A stretch of 64,000 nucleotides of DNA from Pedomonas mirosovicensis (GTDB taxonomy: Bacteria; Pseudomonadota; Alphaproteobacteria; Sphingomonadales; Sphingomonadaceae), in contig NZ_JAKFIA010000001.1 in assembly GCF_022569295.1 (NCBI RefSeq), positions 263,001 to 327,000 on the forward strand. The letters run 5' to 3'. The notes beneath the pieces are model-generated. The model had not been told where the DNA came from, made no database searches, and worked only from the letters and a program-made list of their open reading frames with translations. The position numbers and the translations under genes were made by a program. This document shows positions 5,688 through 47,370 of the stretch, one piece after another; the stretch's first letter is position 1, and the number at the start of each line of letters is the position of its first letter.

Positions 5688-5858
5688 AAGCGGCCCTTAA
5701 CCTTAAAACACTCGGACGTGTCCTTATAACCCCAACGAACGGGCAAGCCCAAGGCTTGATGGGGCGCGACAGCATTGCGAACCGACCGGGAGCCGAAAAG
5801 AAAAATCAACGCCTCGTTTTCGGCGACACGGCCACGGCCCCTGGCGTATAAGCGGTCC

Positions 5859-6920: not shown

Positions 6921-6927
6921 GGAAAAC

Positions 6928-7698
6928 ATGCCCGACCAGTTTCATAAGGCCGAAGCCTTCCGCTCCCTCCATGTGCCCGGCCAGCCCGTGATTCTCTTTA
7001 ACGTGTGGGATGCGGGCAGCGCCCGCGCCGTGGCCGCCAGCGGCGCCCGCGCGCTGGCAACGGGCAGCGCCTCGGTCGCCGCCGCGCACGGCTTCAGCGA
7101 TGGCGAGAAGATGCCCTTCGACCTGGGCCTCGCCAATCTGGAGCGCATCGTGGCAACGACCGACCTGCCCGTCACGCTCGATATGGAAAGCGGCTACGGC
7201 GCAACCCCCGAAGCCGTGGGAGGCTCGGCATCCCGCGCAGTGCAGGCCGGGGCCATCGGCTTCAACATCGAGGACAGTTTCCCCGAAAACGGCTCCCTGC
7301 GGGCGACCGCCGATCAGGTGGCGCGGTTGAGGGCGGCCCGCAGCGCGGCGGATGCCCTTGGCATTCCCGCCTTCCTTAACGCCCGCACGGACGTGTTCTT
7401 TCAGGCCAAGCCCGAACAGCACGACGAGACCATGGTGAACGCCGCCCTCGAGCGCGGCCGCGCCTATGCCGATGTAGGCGCAGACGGCCTGTTCGTGCCC
7501 ATGCTTTCCAATGAAAAACTCATCGCCCTGCTGGTCGAGAAATCCCCGCTGCCGGTCAACATCATGGCGAGCAAGGCCGCGCCGCCCGCCGCCCGCCTCG
7601 CCGCACTGGGCGTCGCCCGCATCAGCCACGGACCAGGCCCCTACCGGCTGGCCATGAAGGCGCTGGAAGACGCCGCCCGCGCCGCGCTGGACGCCTGA
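6928..7698 (+). CDS. Isocitrate lyase / PEP mutase superfamily protein
   Basis: 256-residue TIM-barrel protein of the PEP-mutase/isocitrate lyase superfamily, whose members make or break C-C or P-C bonds in alpha-keto acids. Visible family motifs are LFNVWDAGSAR near the N terminus, the metal-site region TLDMESGYG, the NIEDS motif and a NARTDVFF segment. The catalytic Cys of isocitrate lyase (KKCGH) is absent, so it is more likely an oxaloacetate decarboxylase or methylisocitrate-lyase-like member. It starts 7 bp after ada. Exact substrate unknown. Confidence 0.8.
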   Translation: MPDQFHKAEAFRSLHVPGQPVILFNVWDAGSARAVAASGARALATGSASVAAAHGFSDGEKMPFDLGLANLERIVATTDLPVTLDMESGYGATPEAVGGSASRAVQAGAIGFNIEDSFPENGSLRATADQVARLRAARSAADALGIPAFLNARTDVFFQAKPEQHDETMVNAALERGRAYADVGADGLFVPMLSNEKLIALLVEKSPLPVNIMASKAAPPAARLAALGVARISHGPGPYRLAMKALEDAARAALDA

Positions 7699-7710
7699 GC
7701 AGTTTGTATC

Positions 7711-7940
7711 CCAAGGGGGTCTATAACCCCCTTGGAACCCCCTTTCGTTTTAATAGGGCCGCGCCCTGCATGACCGGGTGCGCCCGGTAGAATCGAACGG
7801 GAATAAGAAGCCTGAGGCTTCCTGTGTGTTTCAAGGGGCCGTGCCCTTTACAGACCATCCGCCTGCCTCCCGGCCGCAGAAAAAGACACGGCCCGATAAA
7901 CAAAAGGGAGGCTGCCAAGAGGGGTAAGCCCCTCCTGCAA
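7711..7940. repeat. Intergenic paired-hairpin element (copy B)
   Basis: Left arm: hairpin CCAAGGGGGTCTATAACCCCCTTGG (7711-7735), then the box CCCCTTTCGTTTT and GGGCCGCG. Right arm: ACGGCCCGATAAACAAAAGGGAG, then the hairpin region AGAGGGGTAAGCCCCTCCTGC (to about 7938). The two arms are inverted relative to each other around a variable centre. It fills the gap between two convergent genes, where the hairpins may act as terminators. Confidence 0.65.
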
Positions 7941-7952
7941 AACAGAAACCAC

Positions 7953-8375
7953 CTAGGACGGCAGGCGCTTGAGGCGCGCGGCGGTTGCCCGTTCGATCGC
8001 GGCGGCGGCCAACCGCTCCAGCCCGAGCCGGGCGCGGATGGTATCCAGAATTTGCCGTTCGTCGGCATCCACATCGCCATCAGCGGCGGCCACCTCGCAG
8101 GCCAGGCAATAGGCCGTCTCGCTCAGCTCCTCGGGGATGGCGGTCTGCACGAGACCCAGCACCGTATCCAGCCCATCATCGGTGTTGAGGATGGTGCCGC
8201 AATCCCGGCTCAGCGGAATGAGCAGCTCCACATTGAAGTTCTCGAACACCGGCCACTCCTTGACCAGGCGGCCGATGGCCTGCATCTCGGACGTGCCCAT
8301 GCGGCCGTTCGATCCGGCAATGACAATCATCAGGTAGACAAGCGCCGTATGAACCGAAACCGGCTGGCCGGTCAT
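7953..8375 (-). CDS. TerB-family protein
   Basis: 140-residue all-helical protein of the TerB (tellurite resistance B-like) superfamily. The acidic loop AADGDVDADERQIL (about residues 96-109) is the typical TerB metal-binding-like turn, and an earlier helix pair ends in SNGRMGTSEMQAIGRLV. Stand-alone TerB proteins are common and not usually linked to tellurite; a role is not assignable. Its start overlaps the stop of the upstream helicase gene by 4 bp, so it is translationally coupled to it. Confidence 0.75.
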   Translation of the reverse strand: MTGQPVSVHTALVYLMIVIAGSNGRMGTSEMQAIGRLVKEWPVFENFNVELLIPLSRDCGTILNTDDGLDTVLGLVQTAIPEELSETAYCLACEVAAADGDVDADERQILDTIRARLGLERLAAAAIERATAARLKRLPS

Positions 8376-11198
8376 GGTATCTGCTCCCCGGTATCCGTTG
8401 CGAGCGGCATGGTAAGGCCCGCCTCGGGCTCAGGCAAGCGCTCGGGCAGTCGATCATCGGGCCCGCCATGCTGAGCCTTGCCACTGAGGAATTTGTAGGA
8501 TTCCTCCACCGCCTCAAGGAGCGTGCAGCGGCGCACCTGAACATCGGCCGGAAAGGCGGAGAGGAGCCGCGAGGGCACCGCCGCGCCCAAGAGCACGAAC
8601 ACGCCCCGGTCCGTCGCCCGGCGGATGAGCCGCCCGAACGCCTGCGCCAGCCGGGCGCGGGTGACGAGGTCGTCGTAGGCCGAGCCGCCGAAGGCCGCTC
8701 TTCGTGCCGCGTGCAGGATGGTGGGACGCGGCCAGGGCACGCCCTCCAGCGCCACCAGCCGCAAGCTGTGGCCGGGCACATCGACGCCGTCGCGCAGGGC
8801 ATCGGTGCCAAGGAGCGAAGCGACCGGATCGGCCCGGAACATGTCAACGAGCGTGCCGGTATCGATGGGGTCCACGTGCTGGGCGAGGAGCGGCAGGCCG
8901 CGCTCGGCCAAGGGGGCTGCGATGCGGGCGTGCACGGCTTTCAGGCGCGCAATCGCCGTGAACAGCCCGAGCACGCCGCCGCCCGCTGCCTGGATAAGCG
9001 CCTTGTAGGCCCCGGCCAGCTGGCCGATATCGCCGCGCTTCACGTCGGTGACGATGAAGACCCGCGCCGCATCCGCATAGTTGAACGGCGAGGGGGTGGA
9101 GAAGCGCTTGGGCGGCAGGGGCAGGTGCTGCGCGCCGGTGCGCTGCTCGGCGATGCGCCAGTCCGTCTCCATTGCCGCGCCTTTATCGCGCAAGGTCGCC
9201 GAGGTGACGACGACGCCGTGGGCGGGCTCCAGCACCAGCCCCGAGAAGGGCTTGGTGGGATCGAGCCAGTGGCGGTGGAGGCCTACATCAAACTCGCGTC
9301 CCTCAACGCGGTCGAGCGCCATCCAGTCGACGAACTCCGGGTCCGCCGCGCCGCCAAGCCGGGCGAGCAGGCCGATCCACGCCATGATGGTCTGGCGCCT
9401 GAGCCGCAGGCCGTTGGCGGCCCCTTCAATGCGGGTGCGAAGCGCGGTGTCCAGCCACTCGGGCCGCTCCTCCACCAGTTCCAGCAGCCGCTGTTCCAGC
9501 TTGCCCATGGGCGTGGCGAGGGCATCCAGCGCTGCCTGCGCCTCGACGCCCGCTTCCACCACGGCCGGGTGCAGGTGCGCGATTTCCGTCTCGACGCCGT
9601 AGCCTGCGTCCTGCGCGTCGGCGCGGGCGAGGATCTGCTGGCGCACCGCCGCCAGCAGCTTTTCAATGGGGCCCGAGGGCTCGCCTTCCTGCAAGCGTTG
9701 CAGCCAGTTCTCGGCGGGCAGGTCCTTCAGCGTGTCGAGAATGGCGGTGAGCAGCCGGGCGCTTTCCTCGTCGTGCAGCACCAGTTCGGAAAGGCGCGCC
9801 TCCAGCCCCCGGCGGCGGCCACGGGCGCGGGACTTCTCGGGGCCCAGCAGCCAGCGGCGCAGCTCCAGTCCTTCCGTGCCGGTGAGGTGGGCCGCAAAGG
9901 TGGAATCCGCCGCGTCGAACAGGTGGTGGCCTTCGTCAAACACGATGCGGGAGAGGCGCTCGTTCTCCGATTTTCCCCGCGCGGCGTTCACCATCACCAG
10001 CGCATGGTTGGCGATGACGATATCCGCGCCTTGGGTCTTGCGCGTCGCCCGCTCGATGAAGCAGCGGCGGTAATGCGGGCAGCCCGCGAACACGCACTCG
10101 CCGCGCCGGTCGGTCAGCGCCGCGATGCGGTTGGTGCCGAATAAGGGCGTCAGCCAGCCGGGGAAATCGCCGCCGATCATGTCCCCGTCCCGCGTGTAGC
10201 GGGCCCAGCGCATGGTGAGGTGGGCAAGGATCGCGGCGCGGCCGGTGAACGCCCCTTGCACCGCGTCCTCAAGGTTCAAAAGGCACAGGTAATTCTCGCG
10301 CCCCTTTCGCACGACCGTTTTGCGGGCGCGCTCGGCGGGGTCCGGGTAGAGGCGGGAAAGCTCGGAATCCAGTTGGCGTTGCAGCGCCTTGGTGAAGGTG
10401 GAAACCCACACGCTGCCACCGGACTTCTCCGCCCACAGGCTGGCGGGCGCGAGATAGCCCAGCGTCTTGCCCGTGCCGGTGCCCGCTTCCACCAGCGCCA
10501 CGTTGGGGGCGGCCTGCATTTCGCGCGGGCGAAAGGCGAAGCTGGCGGCCTCCGCATAGTCCCGCTGCTGGGGCCGCTCCTCCCGCGCCGCCGCCCACGA
10601 GATGCGCGAGGCGGGCCTGCACGTCCTCCTCACCCAGCCGCACATCGCGGGGCTTCATCGGCGGGGGCGACTCCTCCCATTCGGGCAGCGCCAGGAACAG
10701 CGGCCGGTCCGCATGGCGGGGCGACGGCAGGCGCTGCGCGACCAGCGTTGCCCACGGCCACTTGAGGCGCAGCAGCGCCTGCGCCGAGCCATAGGCTCCC
10801 ACCTTGTAGCGCCAGTTGGGCTCTTCCATTTCCGAGAGCAGCTTTTCGGCCGCCACACGCAGAAACAGGGCCTCCTCCTCCGGCGTCACCGGGGCGTCCA
10901 GCCCCAGCGCGCGGGCCATGCCGCGCGCGGTCGGCACGCAGAACTGGGCCGGACGCACGAAGGCGAACAGCTCCAAGAGATCCAGCCCCGAAAGCGAGGG
11001 ATAGCCCAGCCGCGAGGCGGTGAGCGGGGCGTTCAGCAGAATGACCGGCGTATCGGCGGCAAGGCGGATCGCCTGCCCGCGTGTCAGCGACTGCGGCTGG
11101 CCGTCCCCCTCCGCCATCCAGATGCCGACGTGGGCGGCGACAAGCGTTGGATGGCGCAAGAGCAGCGCATTTCCGGTATGTGCGGGTTGATCGGTCAT
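8372..11198 (-). CDS. ATP-dependent DNA helicase, DinG/XPD type (frameshifted in this sequence)
   Basis: Superfamily 2 helicase of the DinG/YoaA/XPD group, about 941 residues once a frameshift near 10580-10600 is corrected. The N-terminal 200 residues (from ATG 11198) are in one frame. The helicase core, with Walker [10 protein letters not shown], the DEAH-type box FDEGHHLFD, and motif [11 protein letters not shown], is in another. A Cys cluster typical of XPD Fe-S helicases is suggested by [12 protein letters not shown]. Removing one G, for example at 10594-10596, joins the frames as [15 protein letters not shown]. It diverges from lysS and is coupled to the downstream terB. Confidence 0.85.
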
Positions 11199-11253
11199 GG
11201 CAGGAACACTAATGACCGTCTCTCGTGCTCACCACAACCACCGGATTGATAAG

Positions 11254-12825
11254 ATGGACGCTCTGAAAGACGCAGCGCAAGTAAACAAGGCCTGGGTGTT
11301 CGAGGAGGCCCGAAAACTGGTGGAGCGTTACGCGTCCGCGCCGCCCGAGAAGGGCTATGTGCTGTTCGAGACCGGCTATGGCCCCTCCGGCCTGCCGCAC
11401 ATCGGCACCTTCGGCGAGGTGGCCCGCACCACCATGGTGATGCACGCCTTCTCCCTGCTCTCCGACCTGCCGGTGAAGCTGATCTGCTTCTCGGACGACA
11501 TGGACGGCCTGCGGAAAGTGCCGGACAACGTGCCGAACAAGGAGATGCTGGCGCCCGCGCTCGGCAAGCCGCTGACGCAGGTGCCGGACCCGTTCGGCAC
11601 CCACCCGAGCTTCGGCGAGCACAACAACGCTCGCCTGCGCGCGTTTCTGGACGCGTTCGGCTTCAAGTATGAGTTCCTGTCGGCCACGGAGTGCTACAAG
11701 TCCGGCCGGTTCGACGCCACGCTGCTGAAGATGCTGGCGAACTACGACAAGGTGATGGACATTATCCTGCCCACCCTTGGGCCCGATCGCCGCAAGACCT
11801 ACTCGCCGTTCCTGCCCGTGTGCCCGAAGACCGGCATCGTGCTGCAAGTGCCGATGGTGGAGCGGGACGTCGAGGCCGGCACCGTCACCTACATCGACCC
11901 CAACGACGGGGAGCGCATGACCGTCCCTGTCACCGGCGGCCACTGCAAACTGCAATGGAAGGCGGACTGGGCGATGCGCTGGGTCGCGCTCGGCGTCGAT
12001 TATGAAATGGCGGGCAAGGACCTGATCGATAGCGTTACCCTTTCCGGCAAGATCGCCCGGGCGCTGGGTGCCAAGCCGCCGGAAGGCTTCAACTACGAGC
12101 TGTTCCTCGACGAGAAGGGCGAGAAGATCTCCAAGTCGAAGGGCAACGGCCTGACGATCGAGGAGTGGCTGACCTACGCCAGCCCGGAGAGCCTTGCGCT
12201 CTACATGTATCAGGCCCCGCGCAAGGCCAAGCGCCTCTACTTCGACGTGATCCCGAAGGCGGTGGACGAATATTACGCGTTCGTCTCGGCCTTCCCGAAG
12301 CAGACGGACGCGGAGAAGCTGGGCAACCCGGCCTTCCACATCCACACCGGGAATGTGCCGGAGATCGACCTGCCGGTCTCGTTCGCGCTGCTCTTGAACC
12401 TGGTGGCCGCCGCCAACACGGACGACCGCGCGGTGCTGTGGGGCTTCATCTCCCGCTATGCGCCGGGCGCAACGCCTACGAGCCACCCGGAGCTGGACCG
12501 CTTGGTGGGCTATGCGCTCGCCTACTACCGCGACCGCGTGGCCCCCACCTTGCAGGTGCGCGCGCCGACCGAGCAGGAGAAGGCTGCGATGGCCGACCTG
12601 ATGCAGCGGCTGGAAGCGCTGCCGGACGACGCCGGAGCAGAGGCCTTCCAGACGGAAGTCTACGAAACCGGCAAGGCCCATGGCTTTGAGAACCTGCGGG
12701 ACTGGTTCAAGGCGCTTTACGAGTGCCTGCTCGGCCAGTCGCAGGGCCCGCGCATGGGCTCGTTCATCGCGCTTTACGGCCGGGAGGAGACCCGCCGCCT
12801 GATCGCGGAGGCGATCGGCGCCTGA
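11254..12825 (+). CDS. lysS: Lysyl-tRNA synthetase, class I
   Basis: Charges tRNA-Lys. This is the class I (archaeal/alphaproteobacterial, LysK-like) enzyme, not the class II enzyme of E. coli. The HIGH-type motif is [10 protein letters not shown] (about residue 46 onward) and the KMSKS-type loop is EKISKSKGN in the middle of the protein. Start taken at ATG 11254, giving 523 residues; an in-frame ATG at 11212 would extend it. The gene diverges from the helicase with only about 55 bp between starts, so their promoters must overlap. A strong terminator follows at 12875. Confidence 0.94.
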
Positions 12826-12874
12826 TTTATAGAGGGGCTGCAAGGGCCTGGTCCCCTTGCGCTCATTCATCTCC

Positions 12875-12912
12875 AGGGCCGTGCGCGGGATGCCGGGCAC
12901 GGCCCTTTTTTC
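12875..12912 (+). terminator. Rho-independent terminator after lysS
   Basis: Stem AGGGCCGTGC / GCACGGCCCT with a short loop, then a run of six T. It lies 50 bp after the lysS stop. Confidence 0.9.
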
Positions 12913-13154
12913 TTGCCGGACTGAAGAGGAAGCGCAACCCCGCCTCCTCCGCCTTTTTGCAATTGATACACTCCCGGCTTTTTTCACATCCGCACCAACC
13001 CTCAGGGATATTTTCGGCGCCATAGGCGTTTGCTCCTGCGGAAAAGCGAAGCCTCGCCGGCGCTCGCTTATCCGTTGTTGCCGTTGCGGTTTCCTTTGAC
13101 GCCCGGCGTTTCGGAAGGGCGTTTCCGGCTCACGCAGACCAGCCTGAGAGCATC
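12913..13154 (+). promoter_or_regulatory. Leader region of the AsnB-like gene array
   Basis: Non-coding 242 bp between the lysS terminator and the first AsnB-like gene, so the promoter of the array must lie here. No clear -35/-10 pair stands out. The last 45 bp (ending CAGCCTGAGAG before ATG) are similar to the leader of the third array gene (16850-16893), showing that the upstream region was duplicated together with the gene. Confidence 0.45.
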
Positions 13155-14909
13155 ATGCAGAAACTTGCCGTTCGCCTGGGGTCGAAGCCCGTTCGCCCGC
13201 TTCTCGAAAAGATGAACCCCGGCGGTTGGACCATCGACACCGCCGCCTTCCCCGGCGGGGAGATCGGCGTCATCCACGCGCCCGCCAGCAAGACGGCGGC
13301 GCTGTCCAGAACCGGCGTCGGCCCCGGCCTCCTGCGCTTTCCCAACGGCGATATCATCGCCTGGGCCGGCCTGCCCATCGCCCGCAACCAGCGGGTGCCG
13401 CTTACGCAGGCGAACGGCCTGCCCGGCCTTGCGCCCGAGCTGGACGGCATCTTCGCCGCCATCGGCTGGTCGGCCGCCGAAGGGCGGCTGTATGTGATTA
13501 CGGATTTTCTCGGCCTCCAGCCGCTCTATGTGGGCGACGACGCGGGCGACTGGCTGGCCGCCAGCGAAACCAAGGTCTTCCCCTACGACCCCGATCCCGT
13601 TGGCTGGGGCGGCTATTACCTCATCCTCGGCCACGCCATCGGCGATGCCACCCAGACGCGCCACGCCAGGCGCCTGCGCCCGGCAAGCGTGCTCGCCGTC
13701 ACGCCGCCGGAGAAGCCGGGCACGCCGCCGAAGGTCGAGACCACCCGCCACTGGGACATGCCGCAGGAAGGCGACAAGGATGCCTCCGCCGAGGAGGCGG
13801 CCGAGGCGCTGCTGGACAGCGCCGCCTCCTATCAGGCGCTGGTGGGGCGAAGCGTGTGCCTGCTCTCGGGCGGGTTCGACAGCCGCCTCATCCTCAGCAT
13901 CCTGACCAAACTGGGGGTGGAGCGGCGGCAGGCGCTGATCCTCAGCCACTATGACGAGGACGCGGACCTGGACGGCAAGATCGCCGCCACCATCGCCCGC
14001 AGAACCCAAACGCCCGTCACCTACTTCCAGCCGGACCGGGACTATTTCTCCAGCCGGACCTACCTCGATTATCTGTGGTCGATCGATGGGGCAACGCCCA
14101 CCCTTTACATCTTCATGGCCCAGATGATCTCGGCCCTTAAGGGCATCGACGCCATCTGGGAGGGTCTGGTGCCGGCCATGGCGTTCAAGACCATCCACCG
14201 CACGGAGGACGGCACGTTCGATGGCTTCCTGCGCGAGAAATGCCGGGCGATCCCTGAGACCATCCAGTTCCTGAAGCCCCAGGTGAGGAAGGATTTTCTG
14301 GACGCCTTCCATGCGGAGTTCGACCGCACCCGGACGCTCTACCCCGATACGCCCCACGGCATGTGGCAGTGGATCCTGGAAAACCGCATCCGCCACCGGG
14401 TGAGCGTCAACCCCACCAAGGCCTTCGCCAACCGGGTGACGCCGCTGAATCTGGGCGCCTCGCGACGGCTGTTCAGCATTACCGCGCCCGCGCCCTACGG
14501 CCGCCGGCGGGAGCGCAGCCTGTATCTGGAAGTCTACCGCATCATCGCGCCCGAGCTGGCGCGCGTGCCCTTCTATTCAGGCGGCGTGCTGCACCGGGGT
14601 GATGCGCCATGGTACAGCTTTGCCGCCTGCAAGCTGATGCAGGACGGATGGAAGGCGCTGGCCTGCTATCCCGGCCTCGCCCGCCGCCTTGGCCTTGGCC
14701 AGCATTTCGGCTTCGCGCCGTCGCGCTTCGTGCGGCACCCGGCCATCTACAAGGAAGAGGACGATTACCTGGACATGGACGTGGTGCGCCGCGCCGAAAC
14801 CGACGACCAGCTTCGCAAGGTTATCGGCAAGTTCCTGTTCCACTGGCGCACCACCCGCTGGGTACACGAGGACCGACTTTATTCAACGCTTGGCGAAGCC
14901 CGGGCCTGA
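13155..14909 (+). CDS. Asparagine-synthetase-like ATP-dependent amide synthetase, array gene 1
   Basis: 584 residues with the two-part layout of class B asparagine synthetases. An Ntn-amidotransferase-like domain spans about residues 1-200; then comes the PP-loop synthetase domain with SGGFDS at residues 238-243, the ATP-pyrophosphatase signature. Residue 2 is Gln, not Cys, so glutamine cannot be hydrolysed. In that respect it resembles beta-lactam synthetase and the lasso-peptide cyclase. Where AsnB and genes 4 and 5 have the acidic GxxxD(E) loop, this protein has WEGLVPAM. It is closely similar to genes 2 and 3. No precursor peptide or pathway partner is recognisable, so substrate and product are unknown. 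Confidence 0.8.
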   Translation: MQKLAVRLGSKPVRPLLEKMNPGGWTIDTAAFPGGEIGVIHAPASKTAALSRTGVGPGLLRFPNGDIIAWAGLPIARNQRVPLTQANGLPGLAPELDGIFAAIGWSAAEGRLYVITDFLGLQPLYVGDDAGDWLAASETKVFPYDPDPVGWGGYYLILGHAIGDATQTRHARRLRPASVLAVTPPEKPGTPPKVETTRHWDMPQEGDKDASAEEAAEALLDSAASYQALVGRSVCLLSGGFDSRLILSILTKLGVERRQALILSHYDEDADLDGKIAATIARRTQTPVTYFQPDRDYFSSRTYLDYLWSIDGATPTLYIFMAQMISALKGIDAIWEGLVPAMAFKTIHRTEDGTFDGFLREKCRAIPETIQFLKPQVRKDFLDAFHAEFDRTRTLYPDTPHGMWQWILENRIRHRVSVNPTKAFANRVTPLNLGASRRLFSITAPAPYGRRRERSLYLEVYRIIAPELARVPFYSGGVLHRGDAPWYSFAACKLMQDGWKALACYPGLARRLGLGQHFGFAPSRFVRHPAIYKEEDDYLDMDVVRRAETDDQLRKVIGKFLFHWRTTRWVHEDRLYSTLGEARA

Positions 14910-14951
14910 TGTCCGGGCAGCCAAGGTCATAAGCACCGGCGTGAGGGGCAC

Positions 14952-16697
14952 ATGCAGAAACTCGCGGTTCGTTTTGGCACTGACTCCGTCCGCCCGATGC
15001 TGGAGCGGATGAACCCCGGCGACTGGGTTATCGATATCGCCGCCTTTCCGGGCGGGGAGATCGGCGTCGTCCACGCGCCGGGCGAGCGATCGTCGGCGCT
15101 GGCCAATACGGGCGCAGGCCCCGGCCTCTGGCGGCTGGAGAACGGCGACATCATCGCCTGGAGCGGCTTGCCGCTCGCCGAAGGCAAGACGGTGCCGCGG
15201 GTGGCGGCCAACGTGCTGCCCGAACTGGCCGCCCGGCTGGACGGCGTGTTCGCCGCCATCGGCTGGTCGCAGGAAGACGGGCGGCTTTACATCGTCACCG
15301 ACTTTCTCGGCCTCCAGCCGGTCTACGTGGGCGACCATTCGGGAGACTGGGCGGCGGCGACCGAGATCAAGCCCTTCCCCTACGACCCGGACCCGGCCGG
15401 GTGGGGCGCGTTCCTCGCCTTCGGCCACACCATCGGCAACGTCACCCTGACGACGCGCGCCGAGCGGCTGCGCCCGGCAACCATTCTCACCGTAACGCCG
15501 CCGGACGCGCGAGGCGCGCCGCCGCGCATCAAAACCTCCCGCTACTGGGAGATGCCGGACGAGGGGCAGGAGCCGCCGCCAGAGGCAACCGTCGCCGCGC
15601 TCAAGGCCAACACCGCCGCCTATCAGGCGCTGGCGGGGCCGAACGTGTGCCTGCTCTCGGGCGGGTTCGACAGCCGCCTCATCCTCAGCCTGCTGCACCG
15701 CATGGGGGTGGAGGAGCGGCGCGCCTTCATCCTCAGCCACCACGACCAGGACGCGGACATGGACGGCCGGCTGGCCGCCCGCGTGGCCAAGCGCAGCAAC
15801 ACGCCGTGCGAATATTACACCCAGAACCGGGAGTTCTATTCCACCAAGGAATACCTCGACTACGTGTGGGCCATCGACGGGGCGACGCCCAACCTGCACC
15901 TGTTCATCGCCCAGCTGGCCCCCACGCTGAACGGCCACGGCTCGATCTGGGAAGGGCTGATTCCGGCGGTGGCGCTGCGCGCGCCCATGCAGTCGGGCGA
16001 CGGCGGCTTCGAGACCATGCGGCGCGAGCGGGTGCACATCAACCGCACTTCCATCAAGATTTTCAAGCCGGCGGTGCAAAAAGCCATGCTCGATGGCTTC
16101 GAAGCCGAGTTCGAGCGCACCAAGGCGCTCTATCCGCAAACGCCCCACGGGGTCTGGCAGTGGGTGATCGAGCAGCGGGTGCGGAACCGCTCGGGCATCA
16201 ACCCCACCAAGGTCTACCCCAACCACGCGACGCCGCTGATGGTTGGCTCCTCCCGCCAGCTGTGGGAGCTGATCGCGCCCATCGGCTACGAACGGCGCAA
16301 GCATTACGACTATTACATCGACGTCTTTCGCGCTCTCGCGCCGGAGATGGCGCAGATCCCCTTCTATTCCACCGGCGGCTCGCTCCACCGGGCGGACACG
16401 GACTGGGCCACCTACAAGGCCTATGAGCTTGGCCTCAAGACCTGGCGGGCCGTCAACAAGCGGCCGCTGCTCGCCCGCGCCTGCGGCATCCATCGCAAGT
16501 TCGGGTTCATCCCGTCCCGCTTCACCCGCCATCCGGTCATCTTCCGGGAGGAAGACGACCTCCTGGACATGGATTTCGTGCGCCGCGCCGAGACCGAGGA
16601 GCCGCTGCGCTTTGAGTGCGGCAAGCTGCTGTTCCACTGGCGGGCGGCGCGCTGGGTGCACGAGAACCGGCTGCACGCGACGCTGCTGCCCGGCTGA
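14952..16697 (+). CDS. Asparagine-synthetase-like ATP-dependent amide synthetase, array gene 2
   Basis: 581 residues, a close paralogue of array gene 1 along its whole length, starting with the same MQKLAVRFG-type N terminus. The PP-loop SGGFDS is at residues 236-241; Cys2 is absent; the later loop reads WEGLIPAV. It begins 42 bp after gene 1 with GTGAGGGG as ribosome site, so the two are almost certainly co-transcribed. Conserved stretches shared with genes 1 and 3 include DFLGLQP, RLRPA, SGGFDSRLIL, PHGxWQW and EEDD near the C terminus. Function inferred only from family. Confidence 0.8.
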   Translation: MQKLAVRFGTDSVRPMLERMNPGDWVIDIAAFPGGEIGVVHAPGERSSALANTGAGPGLWRLENGDIIAWSGLPLAEGKTVPRVAANVLPELAARLDGVFAAIGWSQEDGRLYIVTDFLGLQPVYVGDHSGDWAAATEIKPFPYDPDPAGWGAFLAFGHTIGNVTLTTRAERLRPATILTVTPPDARGAPPRIKTSRYWEMPDEGQEPPPEATVAALKANTAAYQALAGPNVCLLSGGFDSRLILSLLHRMGVEERRAFILSHHDQDADMDGRLAARVAKRSNTPCEYYTQNREFYSTKEYLDYVWAIDGATPNLHLFIAQLAPTLNGHGSIWEGLIPAVALRAPMQSGDGGFETMRRERVHINRTSIKIFKPAVQKAMLDGFEAEFERTKALYPQTPHGVWQWVIEQRVRNRSGINPTKVYPNHATPLMVGSSRQLWELIAPIGYERRKHYDYYIDVFRALAPEMAQIPFYSTGGSLHRADTDWATYKAYELGLKTWRAVNKRPLLARACGIHRKFGFIPSRFTRHPVIFREEDDLLDMDFVRRAETEEPLRFECGKLLFHWRAARWVHENRLHATLLPG

Positions 16698-16778
16698 GCC
16701 TCAACCGGAACCGTGACCGCCGCTTCGCGATTTTAGCGACAACTGGGCTTGCCCTTGGCCGTAAGGGCAATACCCTTC

Positions 16779-16886
16779 ATGGCGGAGAAAGGTACGGGCG
16801 TGTACCCCTCCATGGTTGCGGTTGCGCGTTATGGCCAAGACTGGCGTTCCCCTGCGGGCGCCTGCCTGTCAAAAAGATCAGCCTGA
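16779..16886 (+). CDS. Possible small peptide (35 residues) upstream of array gene 3
   Basis: An ATG-started frame of 35 codons that ends 7 bp before the start of array gene 3. The peptide has a Lys/Gly N terminus, a small hydrophobic centre and a single Cys near the C terminus. Its position would suit a leader or substrate peptide for the AsnB-like enzymes. However, it has no recognised precursor motif, only a weak ribosome site (taaggg about 12 nt upstream), and no counterpart upstream of genes 1, 2, 4 or 5. Low confidence. Confidence 0.2.
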   Translation: MAEKGTGVYPSMVAVARYGQDWRSPAGACLSKRSA

Positions 16887-16893
16887 GAGTGAC

Positions 16894-18685
16894 ATGCAGA
16901 AACTTGCCGTTCGTTTGGGCCCGAAGCCGGTTCGCCCCCCTTCTCGAGAGGATGAACCCCGGCGGCTGGACCATCGACACCGCCGCCTTCCCCGGCGGGG
17001 AAATCGGCGTCATCCACGCGCCCTCGAAGCACACCGGCATTCTGGCGAAAACCGGCACCGGGCCGGGGCTGATGCGGCTGGAGAACGGGGACATCATCGC
17101 CTGGAGCGGCCTGCCGCTGGCCGAGGGACGGACGGTGAAGCTGCGCGCGGCGCGCGATCTGCTCACGCTGGGCCGGGGGCTGGACGGCGTGTTCTCCGCC
17201 GTCGGCTGGTCCGCCGAGGACGGCCGCCTCTACGCCACCATCGATTTCCTCGGCCTCCAGCCGTTCTATTACGGCGAGACGCCGGACGGCTGGATGGCCG
17301 CCAACGAGACCAAGCCCTTCCCTTACGTGCCGGATGCGGCGGGCTGGGGCGGCTTCATCGCCTTCGGCCAGACCATCGGCGGCTCCACCCTCGCCCACCA
17401 TGCGGAGCGGCTGCGCCCGGCGACCGCGCTCACCATCACCCCCGGCATGCCCGGCGCACCGGCGAAGGTGGAGGCCACCCGCTACTGGCAGATGCCGGAC
17501 GAAAAGCCGAAGGAGCCCGCGACCGCCGATATCGTTGCAACGCTGGAGGCCAACACCGCCGCCTATCAGGCGCTGGCGGACGAAAGCGTGCTGCTGCTCT
17601 CGGGCGGGTTCGACAGCCGCCTCATCCTCGGCCTCCTCCACCGGCTGAAGGCGGAGAACCGCCGCGCCCTCATCCTCAGCCACTACGACGAGGACGCGGA
17701 TCTGGACGGGCGGCTGGCCGCCATCACGGCGCGGCTGACCGACACGCCCATCGAATACGACCACCCGGACCGGCAGTTCTTCTCCTCGGGCGCGTACCTT
17801 GACTACATCCACGCCATCGATGGCGGCACGCCCAACCTCTACATGTTCATCGCCCAGCTTTCGGCGGTGCTGGAAGGCCGCAAGGCGGTGTGGGACGGCC
17901 TCATTCCGCCGCTCGCGCTGCGCGGCCCGCTGCAAACGGCGGACGGCGCGCTGGTGCCCTTCCGCCACGAGCGCTTCCTGACCGGCGGCGCGCCCATCCG
18001 CATCTTCAAGCCGAAGGTGTTGCAGGACATGCGCGACGCCTTCCAGGCGGAGTTCGAGCGCACCAAGACCCTCTTCCCGGATTCGCCCCACGGCCGCTGG
18101 CAGTGGATCGTCGAGAACCGGATGCGGAACCGCACCGGCGTCAACCCCACCAAGGTCTACGTGAACCATGTGACGCCGCTGCTGGTGGGGTCCTCGCGCG
18201 CCCTGTGGGAGCTGGCTGCCACCATCCCCTTCGCGCGGCGGCGGGACTACCAGTATTACATAGACGTGTTCCGCACCCTCTCGCCCGAGTTGACGCGGGT
18301 GCCCTTCTCTTCGGGCGGCGACCTGCACCGGGCCGATGCGCCCTGGCACACCTACCAGACCTACGCCCTGCAACAGAAAGGCTGGCGGGCGCTGGCCCGG
18401 CGTCCGCGCCTCGCCCGCATGGTGGGCATTGCCAATGAGGCCGCCTTCGCCCCCTCGTGCTTCATGAACAGCCCCGCTCTCTACCGCGAGGAGGACGACC
18501 TGCTCGACATGGACGTGGTGCGCCGCATGGAAACCGACGAGGCATTGCGCGCCACCAACGGCAAGCTGCTGTTCCACTGGCGCACCACGCGCTGGGTGCA
18601 TGAGAACCGCCTGCACACAACCCTTCTGGAGGCCCCGGATGATCGCGACCAGCCGCTTCCTGCTCTGGCTGCCCAGGCCGGGTAG
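16894..18685 (+). CDS. Asparagine-synthetase-like ATP-dependent amide synthetase, array gene 3 (frameshifted in this sequence)
   Basis: Third close paralogue, 596 residues when a frameshift is corrected. The start MQKLAVRLGPKPVRP at 16894 matches gene 1, but a run of six C at 16935-16940 has one base too many. Removing it restores RPLLERMNPGG, which aligns with gene 1. After the run the reading frame is open to 18685. The PP-loop SGGFDS and a WDGLIPPL loop are present; Cys2 is absent. The gap to gene 2 (196 bp) is larger than between genes 1 and 2 and may hold its own promoter. The end overlaps gene 4 by 47 bp. Confidence 0.78.
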
Positions 18686-20492
18686 CCCGGCCGATCCGGC
18701 ATCGCTGCGCCGCTGGCAGGAAACCGCCGGCCGCGCGGGGCTGACCGCCGTGAACTGGGGCCCGCTGCGCCTGGGCGTCGGGCCCGGCCCCTCGCCCCGG
18801 CCCGCCGAGACCGCCGCGCCGCAAACGGTGCTGGACGCCTACCCCCTGCGCCTGCCGCACCTGCCGGCAGCCTCGGGCCCCATCGATGCGCGCTGGGCGG
18901 AGGAGCACGCCCAGATCTTCACCCTGCTCGGCTGGGACGGGCGCCAGCTCACCCTGCAATCGGATGCCGTAGGGCTGAAGCCGGTTTACTGGGCGGAGAC
19001 GGCGGACGGCTGGCTGTTCGCCTCTACCATCACCGACATTCTCCTCTGCGAGCCCGCGCTGGCCCAGCCCATCGACCCGCTGGCCCTGCAGTTCCTGTTC
19101 ATCGGCCGCGCCGTGTGGGAAGACCGCACCCTGCACCAGCGGGTGAAGCGGTTGAAGAGCGGCGCGGTCTACCGCTGGACGGCGGACGCAGGGCTCACCA
19201 TCACCCGCGAGCGGCGCTGGCAGCTGCCCGAGCCCGAGCCGAAGATGCGCTGGGACGCCTTCTGCGCCCGGATGGACGGCGAAATCGGGCGGCTGATGGA
19301 CCACACCCTTGGCAACAAGCCGGAGCCGCTGGCCCTCTCCCTTTCGGGCGGCTACGACTCGCGCCTGCTGGCGGCACAGGTGGTAGCGCGCGGGCTGAAG
19401 CCGCTGTCGCTCACCTTCGGCGCGGGCCACACGCGCGAGGCGCGCGCCGCCGCCGAGATCGCCCGCCTGCTCGGCCTGCCACACCGCGCGGCTCCCTACC
19501 GGGACGACATCATCCTCGGCCACCTCAACCGGCTGACCGGCTGGTTCGAGGGCTGCTCGGACCTGTCGCTGGGCCAGGCCGCCGCCATCGAGGACTTCCA
19601 CCTGCCGCCGGTGCGAATGGTGCAGGGCTTTGCGGGCGACCTGATCGCCGGCTCCTTCGCCGCCCGGCTGAAAGGCGGCGACGACATCTCGCTCGATGCC
19701 CTGTCCCACGCCATCGTGCGCTACTATTTCCCGACCGCGCCGGACCTCGCCCGCGTGATCGGCATTCCCTTCGATCACGATGCCATGGAAGCCAGCGTTC
19801 GCGCCGAGCTGGGCGACGACAGCCCCTGCATCCCCGCCTTCTGGCGCTGGGCGTGGGAAGACCACGTGCGGCGCTACACGGCGGGCGTGCTGCTCGCCAC
19901 CCAGCCGTGGGCCGACCTGCTGTTGCCCTACTACGACCGGGACTACGTGACCTTCTGGGCCCGTGTGCCGCTGGAAGGACAGCGGGACCGCATTTGGTTC
20001 AAGCGCTGGTTCGCCGAGCGCCACCCAACGCTCGCCCGCGTGCCCCACCCAGAGGCGCTGGAGCACATGATCTCCCAGACCCAGCCCGCCCGCGCCTTCG
20101 AGTGGACCGGGCGGCAGTGCTACAAGGTGGCCGAACGCCTGCTCGGCACCCGCCGCCTGAACGAGGCCATGCGCGCCATTGGGCGCAGCACCTACATCTA
20201 CGACGGCCCGAACCTCACCTCCCGCTGGCACCAGCGCCAGCTGTTCGAGCGGCTGGAGCAGTTCCGCCCCGCCCTGCAACAGCAGCTGGGCATCCACCTG
20301 AAGCCGGACTTCGCCAGCGGCCTGCCCGACCGGCGCGGCCGCACCACACAGCCCGCCCGCCTGCTGCTGACGCTGGGCGCCTATGCCGACCACCTGCAAC
20401 GCGCCCTCGCCGCCGGACGCCGCGAAGTGCGGCTGGAGGAAGACGCCGCCCCCTCGCAGCTCGCGCCGCAAGCCGCCCCGTCAGGAGGGTGA
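18639..20492 (+). CDS. Asparagine-synthetase-like protein, array gene 4 (divergent)
   Basis: 617 residues from ATG 18639, preceded by a good ribosome site (CTGGAGG); the gene overlaps the end of gene 3, so translation is coupled. The PP-loop is SGGYDS at residues 236-241. Unlike genes 1-3 it keeps the acidic loop GFAGDLIAGSF, closer to canonical AsnB. Residue 2 is Ile, so no glutaminase Cys. The N-terminal domain is much diverged but keeps a DAVGLKPVYW segment (AsnB-type D-x-x-G-x-K-P). A Pro/Ala-rich tail ends the protein. Probably a functionally distinct member of the array. Confidence 0.78.
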   Translation: MIATSRFLLWLPRPGSPADPASLRRWQETAGRAGLTAVNWGPLRLGVGPGPSPRPAETAAPQTVLDAYPLRLPHLPAASGPIDARWAEEHAQIFTLLGWDGRQLTLQSDAVGLKPVYWAETADGWLFASTITDILLCEPALAQPIDPLALQFLFIGRAVWEDRTLHQRVKRLKSGAVYRWTADAGLTITRERRWQLPEPEPKMRWDAFCARMDGEIGRLMDHTLGNKPEPLALSLSGGYDSRLLAAQVVARGLKPLSLTFGAGHTREARAAAEIARLLGLPHRAAPYRDDIILGHLNRLTGWFEGCSDLSLGQAAAIEDFHLPPVRMVQGFAGDLIAGSFAARLKGGDDISLDALSHAIVRYYFPTAPDLARVIGIPFDHDAMEASVRAELGDDSPCIPAFWRWAWEDHVRRYTAGVLLATQPWADLLLPYYDRDYVTFWARVPLEGQRDRIWFKRWFAERHPTLARVPHPEALEHMISQTQPARAFEWTGRQCYKVAERLLGTRRLNEAMRAIGRSTYIYDGPNLTSRWHQRQLFERLEQFRPALQQQLGIHLKPDFASGLPDRRGRTTQPARLLLTLGAYADHLQRALAAGRREVRLEEDAAPSQLAPQAAPSGG

Positions 20493-20522
20493 AGGTTCCT
20501 GTCGTTGATCGAGGTTGATTTT

Positions 20523-20657
20523 TGCAGAGGGTCTCGGACCCTCTGCACTCCCTTTCGTTTCGGGCCGCACCCGGTCGCACCGGCGCACTCTCTGGAGGAA
20601 GGACGCGGCCCGAAAAATGAATAGGGGATTGCAGGGGGAACTTGTTCCCCCTGCAAT
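20523..20657. repeat. Intergenic paired-hairpin element (copy D)
   Basis: Left arm: 23-nt perfect hairpin GCAGAGGGTC-TCG-GACCCTCTGC (20524-20546), box ACTCCCTTTCGTTT, then CGGGCCGC. Right arm inverted: GCGGCCCGAAAAATGAATAGGGGA, then hairpin GCAGGGGGAAC...GTTCCCCCTGC (20631-20654). It lies between convergent array genes 4 and 5 and probably ends both transcripts. Confidence 0.75.
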
Positions 20658-20686
20658 CAAACCCCGAACGAGAACAATCCCGCCCC

Positions 20687-22468
20687 TCAGGCGGCGGAGG
20701 CGAGGCGTGCTTCCGGCGCATCCTCCGCCCAGCGCACGTAGCGGGCGAGCGTCCAGAAGCGGCGGAGGATGTGCAGGCCGTCGTACTGGAGGTCGCGGGT
20801 GGGGAAGCAGAACTGCATGAGGTTCTGCGGCACGTCGATGCCGAAGCGTGACCGGAGCGCGGGCGCGGCCGCTTCTACTTCTGCCGCCATGCTGCGGCGG
20901 ATTTCGTCCGTCTCGCCGCCGTAGGAGATTCGCATGATATCCGGGTGCGGCAGTTCGCGGCCCAGCGACTTGTAGAGCTTCTCCTTGGCGTCCAGCCCCC
21001 GGTCGCGGGCGAACTTCCGCAGGATGTCCTTCAGCGCGGGCTTGATGGCGAACACGCTGGAGGGGTGCGGAATGGTGGCGACTTCCGGGAAGTGGGCCTT
21101 GAACACGGTGTAGAACAGGGTGCGGTCCACCTGCGCCATCAGCGGCTGGTGCATCCACAGTTCCATGTAGGCCCGGTCGAGGAAGGGATAGAAGGGCGCG
21201 AAGCGGGAGCCGATGATTTCCGCCTGCGTGGAGGTGAAGCGGCGCTGGCGGTTGCTGCACGCCCACAGCATGGCGGACTGGAACAGGTGCGGCGCATCCG
21301 GCAGGTTGTCGTAGGCCGACTGGCACAGCTGCTCGAACGGCTTGTCGAACCCGGCCATCTCCGCCGCCTTCAGCTGGTTGGGGAAGGCGTAGCTGCGGAT
21401 GATGCCTTCGGCCAGCGCATCCTTGCTGCGGAAGAACTGCGGGGCGACGCGGCAGACGAACGCGCCACTCATGGTATCGCCGAGGAAGCCGTGCATGACG
21501 GCGGTGCCGTCCGTCTCCGGCATGGCCAGCAGGTTGGCGATGTGCATGACATAGGGGTCGATCTGCCCCTGCAGCACCTCGAAATAAAGCGGCATGCGGG
21601 AGCGCAGCATGTCGTGCGGATAGGGCACGGTTCTAAGGTCGAGCCCCAGCCGTTCGGCGATCTGCCGCGCCGCCCAGAACTCGCTGTGGTGCGGCTCGCC
21701 GTAGGTGTAGGCGCGGTAGCGATGCCCCATCGCGCGGGTGGCCGCCGCCATCAGCCGCGAGTCATAGCCGCCGGAGAGGGCAATGACCGGCGGGCCGGCA
21801 TGCCAGGCCAGCTTGCGCCGGATGGAATCGAACATCGCCTCCTTCACCTGTGCGGCGACCATATGCGGGTGGGCATCCGGGTTCGGGTCCCCCAGCCGCA
21901 CCTTGATGCCCTCCGCATGGAGCACCGGCCCGGTGGTCGCCGACCACTCCACCCGGTCGCCGCAGAACAGGCGCTCGATGCCGCCCTCCATGGTGCGCCG
22001 CCCCATGGGGGAGAGCAGGATCAGGAACTCCAGCACCGCCAGCCTGTCCACCGGCGCATCCGCCGGGGCCACCTGACGGATGAGTTCAATGCGGTTGGAG
22101 AGCCACCACCCCTCCGCCCGGCGGCGCAGGAACACAGGCCGGATGCTGATGAGGTCCCCCGCGATGGAAAGCGTGCCCGGTGCGGTCTCGCGGATTTCGG
22201 TGAACACCTGCAAGGCGTCCTGCAGGTCGTCAAAGCCGATAGTGTCCGGCCACTCGGAGGCGCTGGCATGACGGGCAGGCACGGTGTCGATCACCCGCAC
22301 GAGGCCGCCCGCGTGCGGGCGCGCGCCCTTGCCCGGCAGCACCCACAGCCGCGCCGGGCCGAAGGCGAACTCGGTAAAGCCGGAGACCAGATCGGGCGAG
22401 ATCGCGCCGCTCGGTCCGTTCACGTGCGGGAGATAAGCCAGCCAGCGGTCGGTGAGCAGCATCCGCAC
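20687..22468 (-). CDS. Asparagine-synthetase-like protein, array gene 5 (convergent)
   Basis: 593 residues, fifth AsnB-like gene, on the opposite strand and facing gene 4. The PP-loop SGGYDS is at about residues 232-237, and a GFLGDTMSGAF loop retains the acidic residue as in gene 4. It begins MRM, so again no Cys2. The AsnB-like second half is well conserved (YPFLDRAYMEL, matching the AsnB RxPFLD region). It is more similar in motif set to gene 4 than to genes 1-3. Regulation must be separate from the four + strand genes. Confidence 0.78.
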   Translation of the reverse strand: MRMLLTDRWLAYLPHVNGPSGAISPDLVSGFTEFAFGPARLWVLPGKGARPHAGGLVRVIDTVPARHASASEWPDTIGFDDLQDALQVFTEIRETAPGTLSIAGDLISIRPVFLRRRAEGWWLSNRIELIRQVAPADAPVDRLAVLEFLILLSPMGRRTMEGGIERLFCGDRVEWSATTGPVLHAEGIKVRLGDPNPDAHPHMVAAQVKEAMFDSIRRKLAWHAGPPVIALSGGYDSRLMAAATRAMGHRYRAYTYGEPHHSEFWAARQIAERLGLDLRTVPYPHDMLRSRMPLYFEVLQGQIDPYVMHIANLLAMPETDGTAVMHGFLGDTMSGAFVCRVAPQFFRSKDALAEGIIRSYAFPNQLKAAEMAGFDKPFEQLCQSAYDNLPDAPHLFQSAMLWACSNRQRRFTSTQAEIIGSRFAPFYPFLDRAYMELWMHQPLMAQVDRTLFYTVFKAHFPEVATIPHPSSVFAIKPALKDILRKFARDRGLDAKEKLYKSLGRELPHPDIMRISYGGETDEIRRSMAAEVEAAAPALRSRFGIDVPQNLMQFCFPTRDLQYDGLHILRRFWTLARYVRWAEDAPEARLASAA

Positions 22469-22768: not shown

Positions 22769-24598
22769 TTAGACGCTGGCCTTCTGCACCGCGATCCAGT
22801 TGCGGATCTTGGCTTCCAGCACGGTCATCGGCAGGGCGCCGGTGCCCAGCACCTGCTCGTGGAAAGCGCGCACGTCGAACTTCGGACCGAGCTGCTGCTC
22901 GGCTTCCGTCCGCAGGCGGCGGATGGTCAGCTGGCCGATCTTGTAGGCAAGCGCCTGGCCCGGAATGGCGATGTAGCGCTCCACTTCCGCCGTGGCGTCG
23001 GTTTCGCCCATGGCCGAGTTGTCGAGCATGTACTTGATCGCCTGCTCGCGGGTCCAGCCCTTGGCGTGGATGCCGGTGTCGACCACCAGGCGCATGGCGC
23101 GCAGCATCTCATCGTCCAGACGGCCGAACTGCTGGTACGGGTCGGTCAGCAGGCCCAGCTCCTTGCCGAGCGATTCGGCGTAGAGGCCCCAGCCTTCCGT
23201 GTAGGCGTTGTTGCCGCCGAAGCGCAGGAAGTCCGGAATGGTCGGCGTCTCCTGCGCCAGGCTGATCTGGTAGTGATGGCCCGGCACCGCCTCGTGCAGG
23301 AACAGGGTTTCCATGCCCGGCTTGGTGCGGGACGGCAGGTCATAGGTGTTCACGTAGAACACGCCCGGACGCGTGCCATCGGCGCTGCCCGACATGTAGT
23401 AGGCGCCGGCCTGGTTCTTCTCGATGAAGGCCGGAACCGGGCGGATCTCGAACGGCGTCTTGACGGTCCGGTTGAACAGGCGCGGCATGCCCGCATCCAC
23501 GCGGGCGCGGATGGAATTGTAGGCCGCCAGCAGCTCGTCCTTGCTCTTGAACTTGAACTGCGGGTCGGTCCGCAGGTGCTCGAAGAACTGCTTCAGGGTG
23601 CCCTTGAAGCCAACCTGGTTCTTGATGGCTTCCATCTCGCGGGTGATGCGCGCCACTTCCTTGAGGCCGATCTCGTGGATCTCGTTCGGCGTCATCTTGG
23701 TGGTGGTGTGCTGTTCAACCAGCGCGGAATAGAGCAGCGGGCCATCCTTCATGCCGAGCAGGCCCGGCACGCGGCGAGCGTGCGGCTTGTACTCGGTTTC
23801 CATGAAGGTCTTCAGCCGCTGGTAGACCGGAAGGATCGTGTTGGCGATCTTGTCCTGGTAGGCCTGGGTCAGCCGCGCCTTGTCGCTGGCGGAGAAGTCC
23901 GCCGGCATGTTCTTGATCGGCAGGTAGTAGGTGCTGTTCTCAACGCCCTGCTTGATGATGGTGTCGAGCTGGCCGATCACGTTGTTCACCACCACCTGCG
24001 GCTGCACGTGCCCGGCGTTTATGCCCTCGCGCATGCGAACGATGGCGCGGTCCATCACGACCACGAAGTTGTCCATGCGCTTGAGGCCGTCCTCATAGTC
24101 CTTCACCGTCTTGTACGGCGCGATGGACTGGCCGGAGGACAGGTCCGGGAAGAAGGTGTGCATGCCGTAGAAGTGATCGATCGGCAGCTGGGTCTGGATG
24201 GTCTCCAGCGGCTTCGAGGCGAAGCGCAGCGCCAGTTCCGTCTCATACTTGAAGACATCGTAGTAGATGGCGTTGTCCGGGCTCAGCGCCGAACGGTCGA
24301 TGGTGGCGAGGCGCGCCAGATCCTGCTGCTTGGCCTGATAGACCGCGGCGGCATATTCGTCGGACAGATAATCGCCGATCCGGTCGGCATAGCGCATGTC
24401 GCCGCGCGCCAGCGCGTTGATCGGGTTGAGGCGCAGGTTGGTCTCGTCGCTGTCCTTGAACAGCTGGGCCAGCTGCTGATCGGCGCTCGGCTTGACCACG
24501 GCCACCGGCTCCGGCGGCTGCTTGGTGGCGCAGGCGGCCAGCACGGCAAACGGCAGGGCGGCCATGCTGAGGCGCAGCCACGTCTTCAAATTGCTCAT
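22769..24598 (-). CDS. DUF885-family secreted metallopeptidase, lipoprotein
   Basis: 609 residues from ATG 24598. The N terminus is a signal peptide ending in the lipobox FAVLAAC, so the protein should be lipid-anchored in the envelope. The DUF885 core carries the zinc-site motif FLHEAVPGHHYQ and a downstream EGWGLYAESLG, the expected HExxGHH...E arrangement of this peptidase-like family. Substrates of most members are unknown; some act on short peptides. The gene is co-directional with the upstream amidohydrolase (160 bp gap), suggesting a joint role in degrading dipeptides or small amides. Confidence 0.85.
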   Translation of the reverse strand: MSNLKTWLRLSMAALPFAVLAACATKQPPEPVAVVKPSADQQLAQLFKDSDETNLRLNPINALARGDMRYADRIGDYLSDEYAAAVYQAKQQDLARLATIDRSALSPDNAIYYDVFKYETELALRFASKPLETIQTQLPIDHFYGMHTFFPDLSSGQSIAPYKTVKDYEDGLKRMDNFVVVMDRAIVRMREGINAGHVQPQVVVNNVIGQLDTIIKQGVENSTYYLPIKNMPADFSASDKARLTQAYQDKIANTILPVYQRLKTFMETEYKPHARRVPGLLGMKDGPLLYSALVEQHTTTKMTPNEIHEIGLKEVARITREMEAIKNQVGFKGTLKQFFEHLRTDPQFKFKSKDELLAAYNSIRARVDAGMPRLFNRTVKTPFEIRPVPAFIEKNQAGAYYMSGSADGTRPGVFYVNTYDLPSRTKPGMETLFLHEAVPGHHYQISLAQETPTIPDFLRFGGNNAYTEGWGLYAESLGKELGLLTDPYQQFGRLDDEMLRAMRLVVDTGIHAKGWTREQAIKYMLDNSAMGETDATAEVERYIAIPGQALAYKIGQLTIRRLRTEAEQQLGPKFDVRAFHEQVLGTGALPMTVLEAKIRNWIAVQKASV

Positions 24599-24757
24599 CT
24601 TAAGGAACCCCCTTGTATCGACGCGCAGCGCCGGATCAGGGCGCTGCGCGAATATAAATCGCGACATGGCGGCCAGCCCCTTGCCGGAGCAATTCTCCCG
24701 CGATGAACCGCCGGCGCCGTGCGCCGAACTGCCGCCATGCCGCGATGAACCGATGAT

Positions 24758-26227: not shown

Positions 26228-26783
26228 TTACAGCCGGTCCGGCAGGAACTGCGATTTGCGGCTGATGGTCTTGCCGGAGACCATGAACTGGCCATCGCCC
26301 ATGTAGTGCAGGGTCTCGGGCATCTTGGGGGAGGGGGGCGACGTGGGCCTTCACCACCTCGAAGATGAAGAAGTTGTAGCGATCAACCATGGCGTCGTCG
26401 TGCAGGCGGCACTCGAAGCTGGCGTGGCATTCGCGGATGAGCGGGGCGTCCACCTCTTCCGCCTCCTCGGGCGTGAGGCTGAACGCGGCGAACTTGTCGG
26501 TGCTGGAGCCCGAGCAGTTGCCGATGCCGACCACCGTGTCGGTGAGCGCGGTCGTCGGCAGGTTGATGACGCACTGCCGGCTGTTGCGGATCATCTGGAA
26601 GCTGTGGTTGCCGCTGGAGATCATGCAGCCCACCAGCGAGGGGGTGAACTCCAGCACCGTGTGCCAGCCCATGGTCATGATGTTGTCCCGCCCCTGCCAG
26701 CGGGAGGAGACCAGCACGATCGGCCCCGGCTCCAGATACCGGCGCACCTCGCTCACGGGAAACGGCTGCTTCGCCTTCGTCAT
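26228..26783 (-). CDS. Flavin reductase family protein (frameshifted in this sequence)
   Basis: FMN-binding split-barrel flavin reductase-like protein, 184 residues from ATG 26783. The body shows the family segments SRWQGRDNIMTMGWH and VINLPTTALTDTVVGIGN. Near the C terminus the frame is broken at a run of six G (26333-26338 on the + strand). With five G it reads AHVAPSPKMPETLHYMG and continues to a stop at 26228-26230. As written, translation would run on to 26103. The electron donor and partner oxygenase are not evident from context. Confidence 0.75.
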
Positions 26784-46004: not shown

Positions 46005-46083
46005 GGGCTTGCCCGCACCCTATTGGAAGCGGAACGAGGCAAGGACCGTTTGGTTGCGCGCCGGGGCAATCTACCGGCTTTTC

Positions 46084-47229: not shown

Positions 47230-47370
47230 AGGCTCCCGCATCGCGCCCCAGCATATTCCGCACGCGCTACGACCGTGTGCACCATGGGCCGAAGCCTTGG
47301 TAAGCAATGCATTTATACTACAAAAAACGTTATTCCGCCGCAACGGTTACGGCAGGCAAGCGTGAACCGG

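Follow-up and report, generated by a model that had tools for sequence, protein, structure and literature searches.

Enzymes of the asparagine-synthetase (AS) fold that lack the glutaminase cysteine, Cys2, make beta-lactams and lasso peptides. Beta-lactam synthetases, carbapenam synthetases and TsnB9-type hydroxyamidotransferases act on small acids, and the amidotransferases of the XrtA/PEP-CTERM and WbpS types are described as glutamine-dependent. WbpS-type AS-like enzymes amidate uronic acids (PMC7468200). The TsnB9 hydroxyamidotransferase uses glutamyl hydroxamate supplied by partner oxygenases (PMC13418202), and PesC, a peptide nitrile synthetase of the AS family, illustrates how far the chemistry of this scaffold can shift (PMC13060819).

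Here we describe an array of five AS-like genes that is real, rare and of this known fold, and that falls in an uncharacterised branch of the family. The window analysed is a stretch of 64,000 nucleotides (C1:263001-327000) from a genome of 3.63 Mb in two contigs. An earlier note on this DNA had reported five AS-like genes at 13155-22468 with an SGG(F/Y)DS PP-loop; all five open reading frames were confirmed there. The array and its borders are as follows, in window coordinates:

11197-12825, + strand: lysK, class I lysyl-tRNA synthetase (Pfam tRNA-synt_1f, 1.6e-135); conserved neighbour at the left border of the putative insertion, outside the system
13155-14909, + strand: g1, Cys2-less DSR-type AS-like protein of the Q-type subfamily, 584 aa
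14952-16697, + strand: g2, Cys2-less DSR-type AS-like protein of the Q-type subfamily, 581 aa
16894-18685, + strand: g3, member of the Q-type subfamily; body read from an in-frame ATG at 16952, with the MQK start at 16894 in another frame
16935-16940, + strand: C6 run, point of the g3 frame change and probable assembly indel
18639-20492, + strand: g4, Cys2-less DSR-type AS-like protein of the I-type subfamily, 617 aa; overlapping the 3' end of g3
20687-22468, - strand: g5, Cys2-less DSR-type AS-like protein of the I-type subfamily, 593 aa; convergent
22769-24667, - strand: DUF885 gene (Pfam DUF885, 7e-175); conserved neighbour at the right border of the putative insertion, outside the system

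With g3 running into g4 (overlap 18639-18685) and only short spacers within g1-g4, these four genes look like one operon, to which g5 is convergent. Terminator-like and promoter-like sites at the array did not exceed the counts obtained in shuffled sequence.

The MQK starts given in the earlier note hold with one correction: that of g3 is separated from the body of the gene by one extra C in the C6 run at 16935. Only two runs of at least six G or C occur between 8 and 30 kb of the window, and each lies at a frameshift, which makes a homopolymer indel error in the assembly the probable cause of the g3 break, rather than a real pseudogene. The second run, G6 at 26333-26338, coincides with a frame shift in a flavin-reductase-like gene whose own homology continues past it. 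Upstream, at 10580-10700, a helicase-like gene is split over two frames relative to its relatives, with no such run at the break. The breaks in these two genes likewise point to indel errors in the assembly.

The five genes had been taken as one homogeneous array. Pairwise identity among the tandem paralogues g1-g3 is 56-62%, while g4 and g5 share 28% with each other and only about 25% with g1-g3, and the predicted proteins are accordingly divided here into two subfamilies, Q-type (g1-g3) and I-type (g4 and g5). Every one carries the PP-loop as SGG[FY]DSR, at residues 238-244 in g1, 236-242 in g2 and g4, 230-236 in g5 and 217-223 in g3 (numbered from the internal ATG). The Arg directly after the loop is thus present in 5/5 array proteins; AsnB has Ser at that position. 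Cys2 is absent from all five, as the earlier note had observed, whichever nearby start applies: none has a Cys in its first 130 residues, and the earliest in the set is residue 137 of g4. Since Cys2 is missing, none of the five should hydrolyse glutamine. The array proteins likewise have neither the RGP nor the NGE string of the glutaminase site.

Models of the family matched these proteins weakly. Pfam GATase_7 and/or Asn_synthase matched 5/5, several below the curated cut-off, and scores against NCBIfam family models fell far under their curated cut-offs. Against the glutamine-dependent asparagine synthetase model (TIGR01536), which goes with Cys2, the array proteins reached 25-44 bits (cut-off 267). 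Against the XrtA/PEP-CTERM amidotransferase model (TIGR03108), g1-g4 reached 29-45 bits (cut-off 816.9) and g5 gave no match. Like TIGR03108 and WbpS-type uronic-acid amidotransferases, the array proteins belong to the AS family, and part of their wider branch shares the surface-polymer setting of those enzymes; the array itself, unlike them, lies outside glycan loci.

AlphaFold models of g2 (pLDDT 82.5, pTM 0.86) and g5 (pLDDT 77.0, pTM 0.82) both predict the AsnB fold. Foldseek matched the g2 model to TsnB9, bls, CarA and AsnB, and the g5 model to TsnB9, bls and AsnB, at 12-18% identity over the structural matches. The nearest described protein by sequence profile as well as by fold is TsnB9 (7ylz), at only 12-14% identity, and its partner oxygenases have no counterpart beside the array. 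With bls (1jgt/1m1z) and CarA (1q15) the array proteins share the AsnB fold, the two-domain layout, an Ntn-like domain that lacks Cys2, and the PP-loop. They differ in the Arg that follows the loop and in having no clavulanate- or carbapenem-type neighbours; in this comparison the Lys position is not kept, and the weakly aligned C-terminal part gives no firm position for a Tyr-Glu dyad. Relative to E. coli AsnB (1ct9), the fold and PP-loop are retained and the active site is changed. The GEGSDE motif aligns with GFxGD in g4 and g5 and with WEGxxP or WDGxxP in g1-g3, and the catalytic Lys aligns with Arg in g4 and g5 and is unconserved in g1-g3, both with an unsure C-terminal alignment. The acidic motif of AsnB thus appears to be lost in g1-g3 and reduced in g4 and g5. 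Five Q-type proteins, drawn from two genera, nevertheless share many invariant residues, including H263, D269, D271, W402-Q403-W404 and HWR 562-564 (g2 numbering), which suggests an active site that has been kept but altered. Three features went unforeseen in the earlier note: the conserved Arg that follows the PP-loop, the disappearance of the acidic motif from g1-g3 and the probable sequencing frameshift in g3.

We then considered the distribution of the array. We compared 401 genomes of the family, taken from a larger set, and Q-type genes were present in only two: this one and a metagenome-assembled genome of another genus (G057, MAG KLAP49). G057 has two tandem Q-type copies, both with full-length frames, flanked by lysK and a TPR gene on one side and by DUF885 and an amidohydrolase gene on the other; they are about 42-43% and 33% identical to g2. 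The earlier note had allowed for a duplication confined to one genome and devoid of conserved context, and the finding of two copies at the lysK/DUF885 site in a second genus speaks against it. In three relatives (G011, G012 and G022) lysK adjoins DUF885 with no array, and in two more (G007 and G013) a TPR gene lies between lysK and DUF885 with no AS-like gene. We found no remnant of a TPR gene between lysK and g1. Because G057 shares the site while these five relatives have it without the array, the array is probably an accessory locus that was inserted between lysK and the DUF885 gene in an ancestor of both genera. It also appears to evolve fast, since g2 is about 42-43% identical to its nearest counterpart in G057, compared with 70% for DUF885. 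For g1-g3, NG86 gives a dN/dS of about 0.5-0.6, which strong codon bias makes only approximate. The analysis did not support a functional link between the array and the DUF885 peptidase or the amidohydrolase; both neighbours occur without the array in relatives.

Fast evolution of this kind, with dN/dS at that level, together with the altered acidic motif and Lys (most in g1-g3) and the frameshift of g3 as assembled, would fit paralogues that keep the fold and have lost ligase activity, serving as binding proteins or simply drifting. We regard such loss of activity as a serious but rather improbable alternative. Four of the array genes (g1, g2, g4 and g5) and both G057 genes are open at full length, the PP-loop is intact in every copy, many polar residues are invariant across two genera, and the g3 frameshift sits at a homopolymer, with similar breaks in nearby conserved genes.

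To place the array within the family, we used a tree of 39 proteins, 20 of them DSR-type, that included Cys2-bearing proteins and three lasso-type cyclases from this genome but no bls or CarA sequence. A supported branch (100/96) separated all 20 DSR proteins from the Cys2-bearing proteins and the three cyclases; the split persisted (99/95) when the N-terminal Cys and PP-loop columns were removed. Among the relatives compared, proteins with Cys2 carry DSS, DSG or DSC, and DSR proteins have no Cys2. The array proteins show both marks of the DSR side, SGGxDSR without Cys2 and grouping with other DSR proteins, although Q-type and I-type reach the latter only via long branches, which limits finer placement. 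The tree did not establish a clade of g1-g3 with the g4 and g5 types, exclusive of other DSR proteins, and an AU test did not reject one (p = 0.258). The array proteins, judged from sequence, fall in an uncharacterised AS-family branch, marked by loss of Cys2 and by Arg after the PP-loop, and not, as the earlier note had allowed, in one characterised family. The literature that we searched held no characterised member of the DSR branch and assigned a reaction to none; the chemistry of one member could inform the whole branch.

This tree also bears on the proposal that the array encodes lasso-peptide or other RiPP cyclases or amidases whose ribosomal peptide substrates are encoded elsewhere. 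Fold and missing Cys2 are common to both, g4 weakly matches an albusnodin/ikarugamycin cyclase model (3.3e-8, below the cut-off), and lasso-type cyclase genes do occur elsewhere in this genome. Those cyclases (L070, L076 and L077), however, have DSS or DSA after the loop and lie across the DSR branch from the array. The lasso-peptide cyclase model (NF033535) scored the array proteins at no more than 14.5 bits against a cut-off of 525, no B protein stands beside the array, and no leader-like motif was found in six frames between 8 and 30 kb. The earlier note had already remarked that a lasso B protein, NRPS genes and an obvious precursor were missing nearby, and that absence was borne out, with a lasso-type leader also missing from the scan. 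We rejected the lasso-peptide reading on the empty leader scan, the sub-threshold model and the opposing tree, and consider RiPP chemistry in general very improbable. The note's suggestion of cyclised peptides found no positive evidence, and its filing of the genes with lasso cyclases or beta-lactam synthetase reduces to a common fold and the missing Cys2.

Among the lasso-type cyclase loci L070, L071 and L077 of this genome, L070 and L077 have a B-like gene upstream of the cyclase; the L071 locus looks fragmented.

Other DSR proteins are often neighbours of EPS or exosortase genes. G401, where PrsT is present, and G609 each have one in an exosortase-linked EPS locus. This genome has an exosortase-A-type EPS locus of its own (L072, C1:686000-703000; 5166-15018), in which a DSR-type AS-like protein (8090-9811) is accompanied by wecB, glycosyltransferase, O-glycosylation-ligase (exosortase-associated ligase model) and hydrolase genes. 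Further members lie in polysaccharide loci of Sulfitobacter and Haloprofundus plasmids. The DSR proteins of these exosortase/EPS loci (G401, G609, L072 and L075 of this genome) and plasmid loci resemble the array proteins in lacking Cys2, in SGGxDSR and in their side of the tree; they differ in being single genes, mostly beside glycosyltransferases, and the array subfamilies form separate long branches. Members of the DSR branch come from bacteria and from a plasmid of an archaeon. They recur in surface-polymer loci, and in occasional cases the genes have multiplied into arrays.

Two DSR-type AS-like genes of other genomes, L095:8655-10094 (G411) and L100:1882-3624 (G622), have reading frames that look disrupted in the C-terminal half.

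We tentatively favour, as quite possible and somewhat short of an even chance, a reading of the array as ligases of two DSR subfamilies in an accessory locus, making amides without glutamine. The predicted fold, the intact ATP loop, the absence of glutaminase motifs, the two subfamilies, the tree grouping, the insertion site and the recurrence are what we observed. Because the AsnB fold and PP-loop are intact and the glutaminase is missing, each enzyme would use ATP to adenylate a carboxylate, and an amine of the same substrate, or of a second one, would attack the acyl-adenylate to give an amide. With less confidence, the substrate might be a cell-surface or exported glycan, because other DSR proteins sit in EPS/exosortase loci and WbpS-type enzymes amidate uronic acids, and the paralogues might differ in the carboxylate or amine that they accept. 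Of the guesses in the earlier note, amidation of a surface polymer is therefore the better one, qualified by the lack of any glycan gene at the array. Several points tell against our reading: glycan genes are absent at the array in this genome and in G057, some DSR relatives (G438, G411, G723 and G731) have no glycan context, the AsnB acidic motif is lost or reduced and the catalytic Lys not kept, and the Q- and I-type branches are long.

The absence of glycan genes beside the array is also what a pathway joining carboxylates to amines to give a soluble metabolite would lead one to expect. TsnB9, bls and CarA are the best fold matches, and a mix of subfamilies suggests successive steps. However, no tailoring, transport or resistance genes adjoin the array, whose flanks are conserved housekeeping genes, and we judge such a small-molecule amide pathway unlikely, though a serious rival.

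Returning to amide ligation on a surface or secreted product, the I-type subfamily offers a further comparison. Full-length I-type relatives were found only in a genome of another alphaproteobacterial family (G731). There, next to genes of prophage type, a pair of I-type genes is interleaved with a pair from a third DSR subfamily. G731 and the present genome each combine two DSR subfamilies, so mixed arrays of these predicted ligases occur in two lineages. The third-type paralogues of G731 (L082:11575-13068 and L083:3600-5093) are 100% identical in seven successive 90-nt windows; over about 720 nt they are nearly identical, and identity then drops abruptly to about 70%. This pattern suggests a recombination breakpoint where the ATP half meets the C-terminal half, with apparent gene conversion of the former. 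It also underlies a more speculative idea, to which we give little credence: that loci of this kind recur, each pairing two arrayed and diversified DSR ligase subfamilies whose members share the ATP-activating half and vary in the acceptor half, and that the paralogues together would decorate a surface or secreted product with differing amides. The DSR branch and the repeated appearance of mixed arrays are the main points of interest, and the array paralogues are a natural set for mapping substrate specificity.

Two other settings were considered and set aside. For carriage by phage or plasmid, IMG/VR scans (A2, A6 and G731 a-type) were empty, INPHARED gave no match and the plasmid relatives were only remote; for anti-phage defence, PADLOC gave no match. 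Elsewhere in the window, at 44874-47343, two adjacent acyltransferase-like membrane proteins, judged by eye to have similar N-terminal stretches, lie beside a secreted protein (47412-48146).
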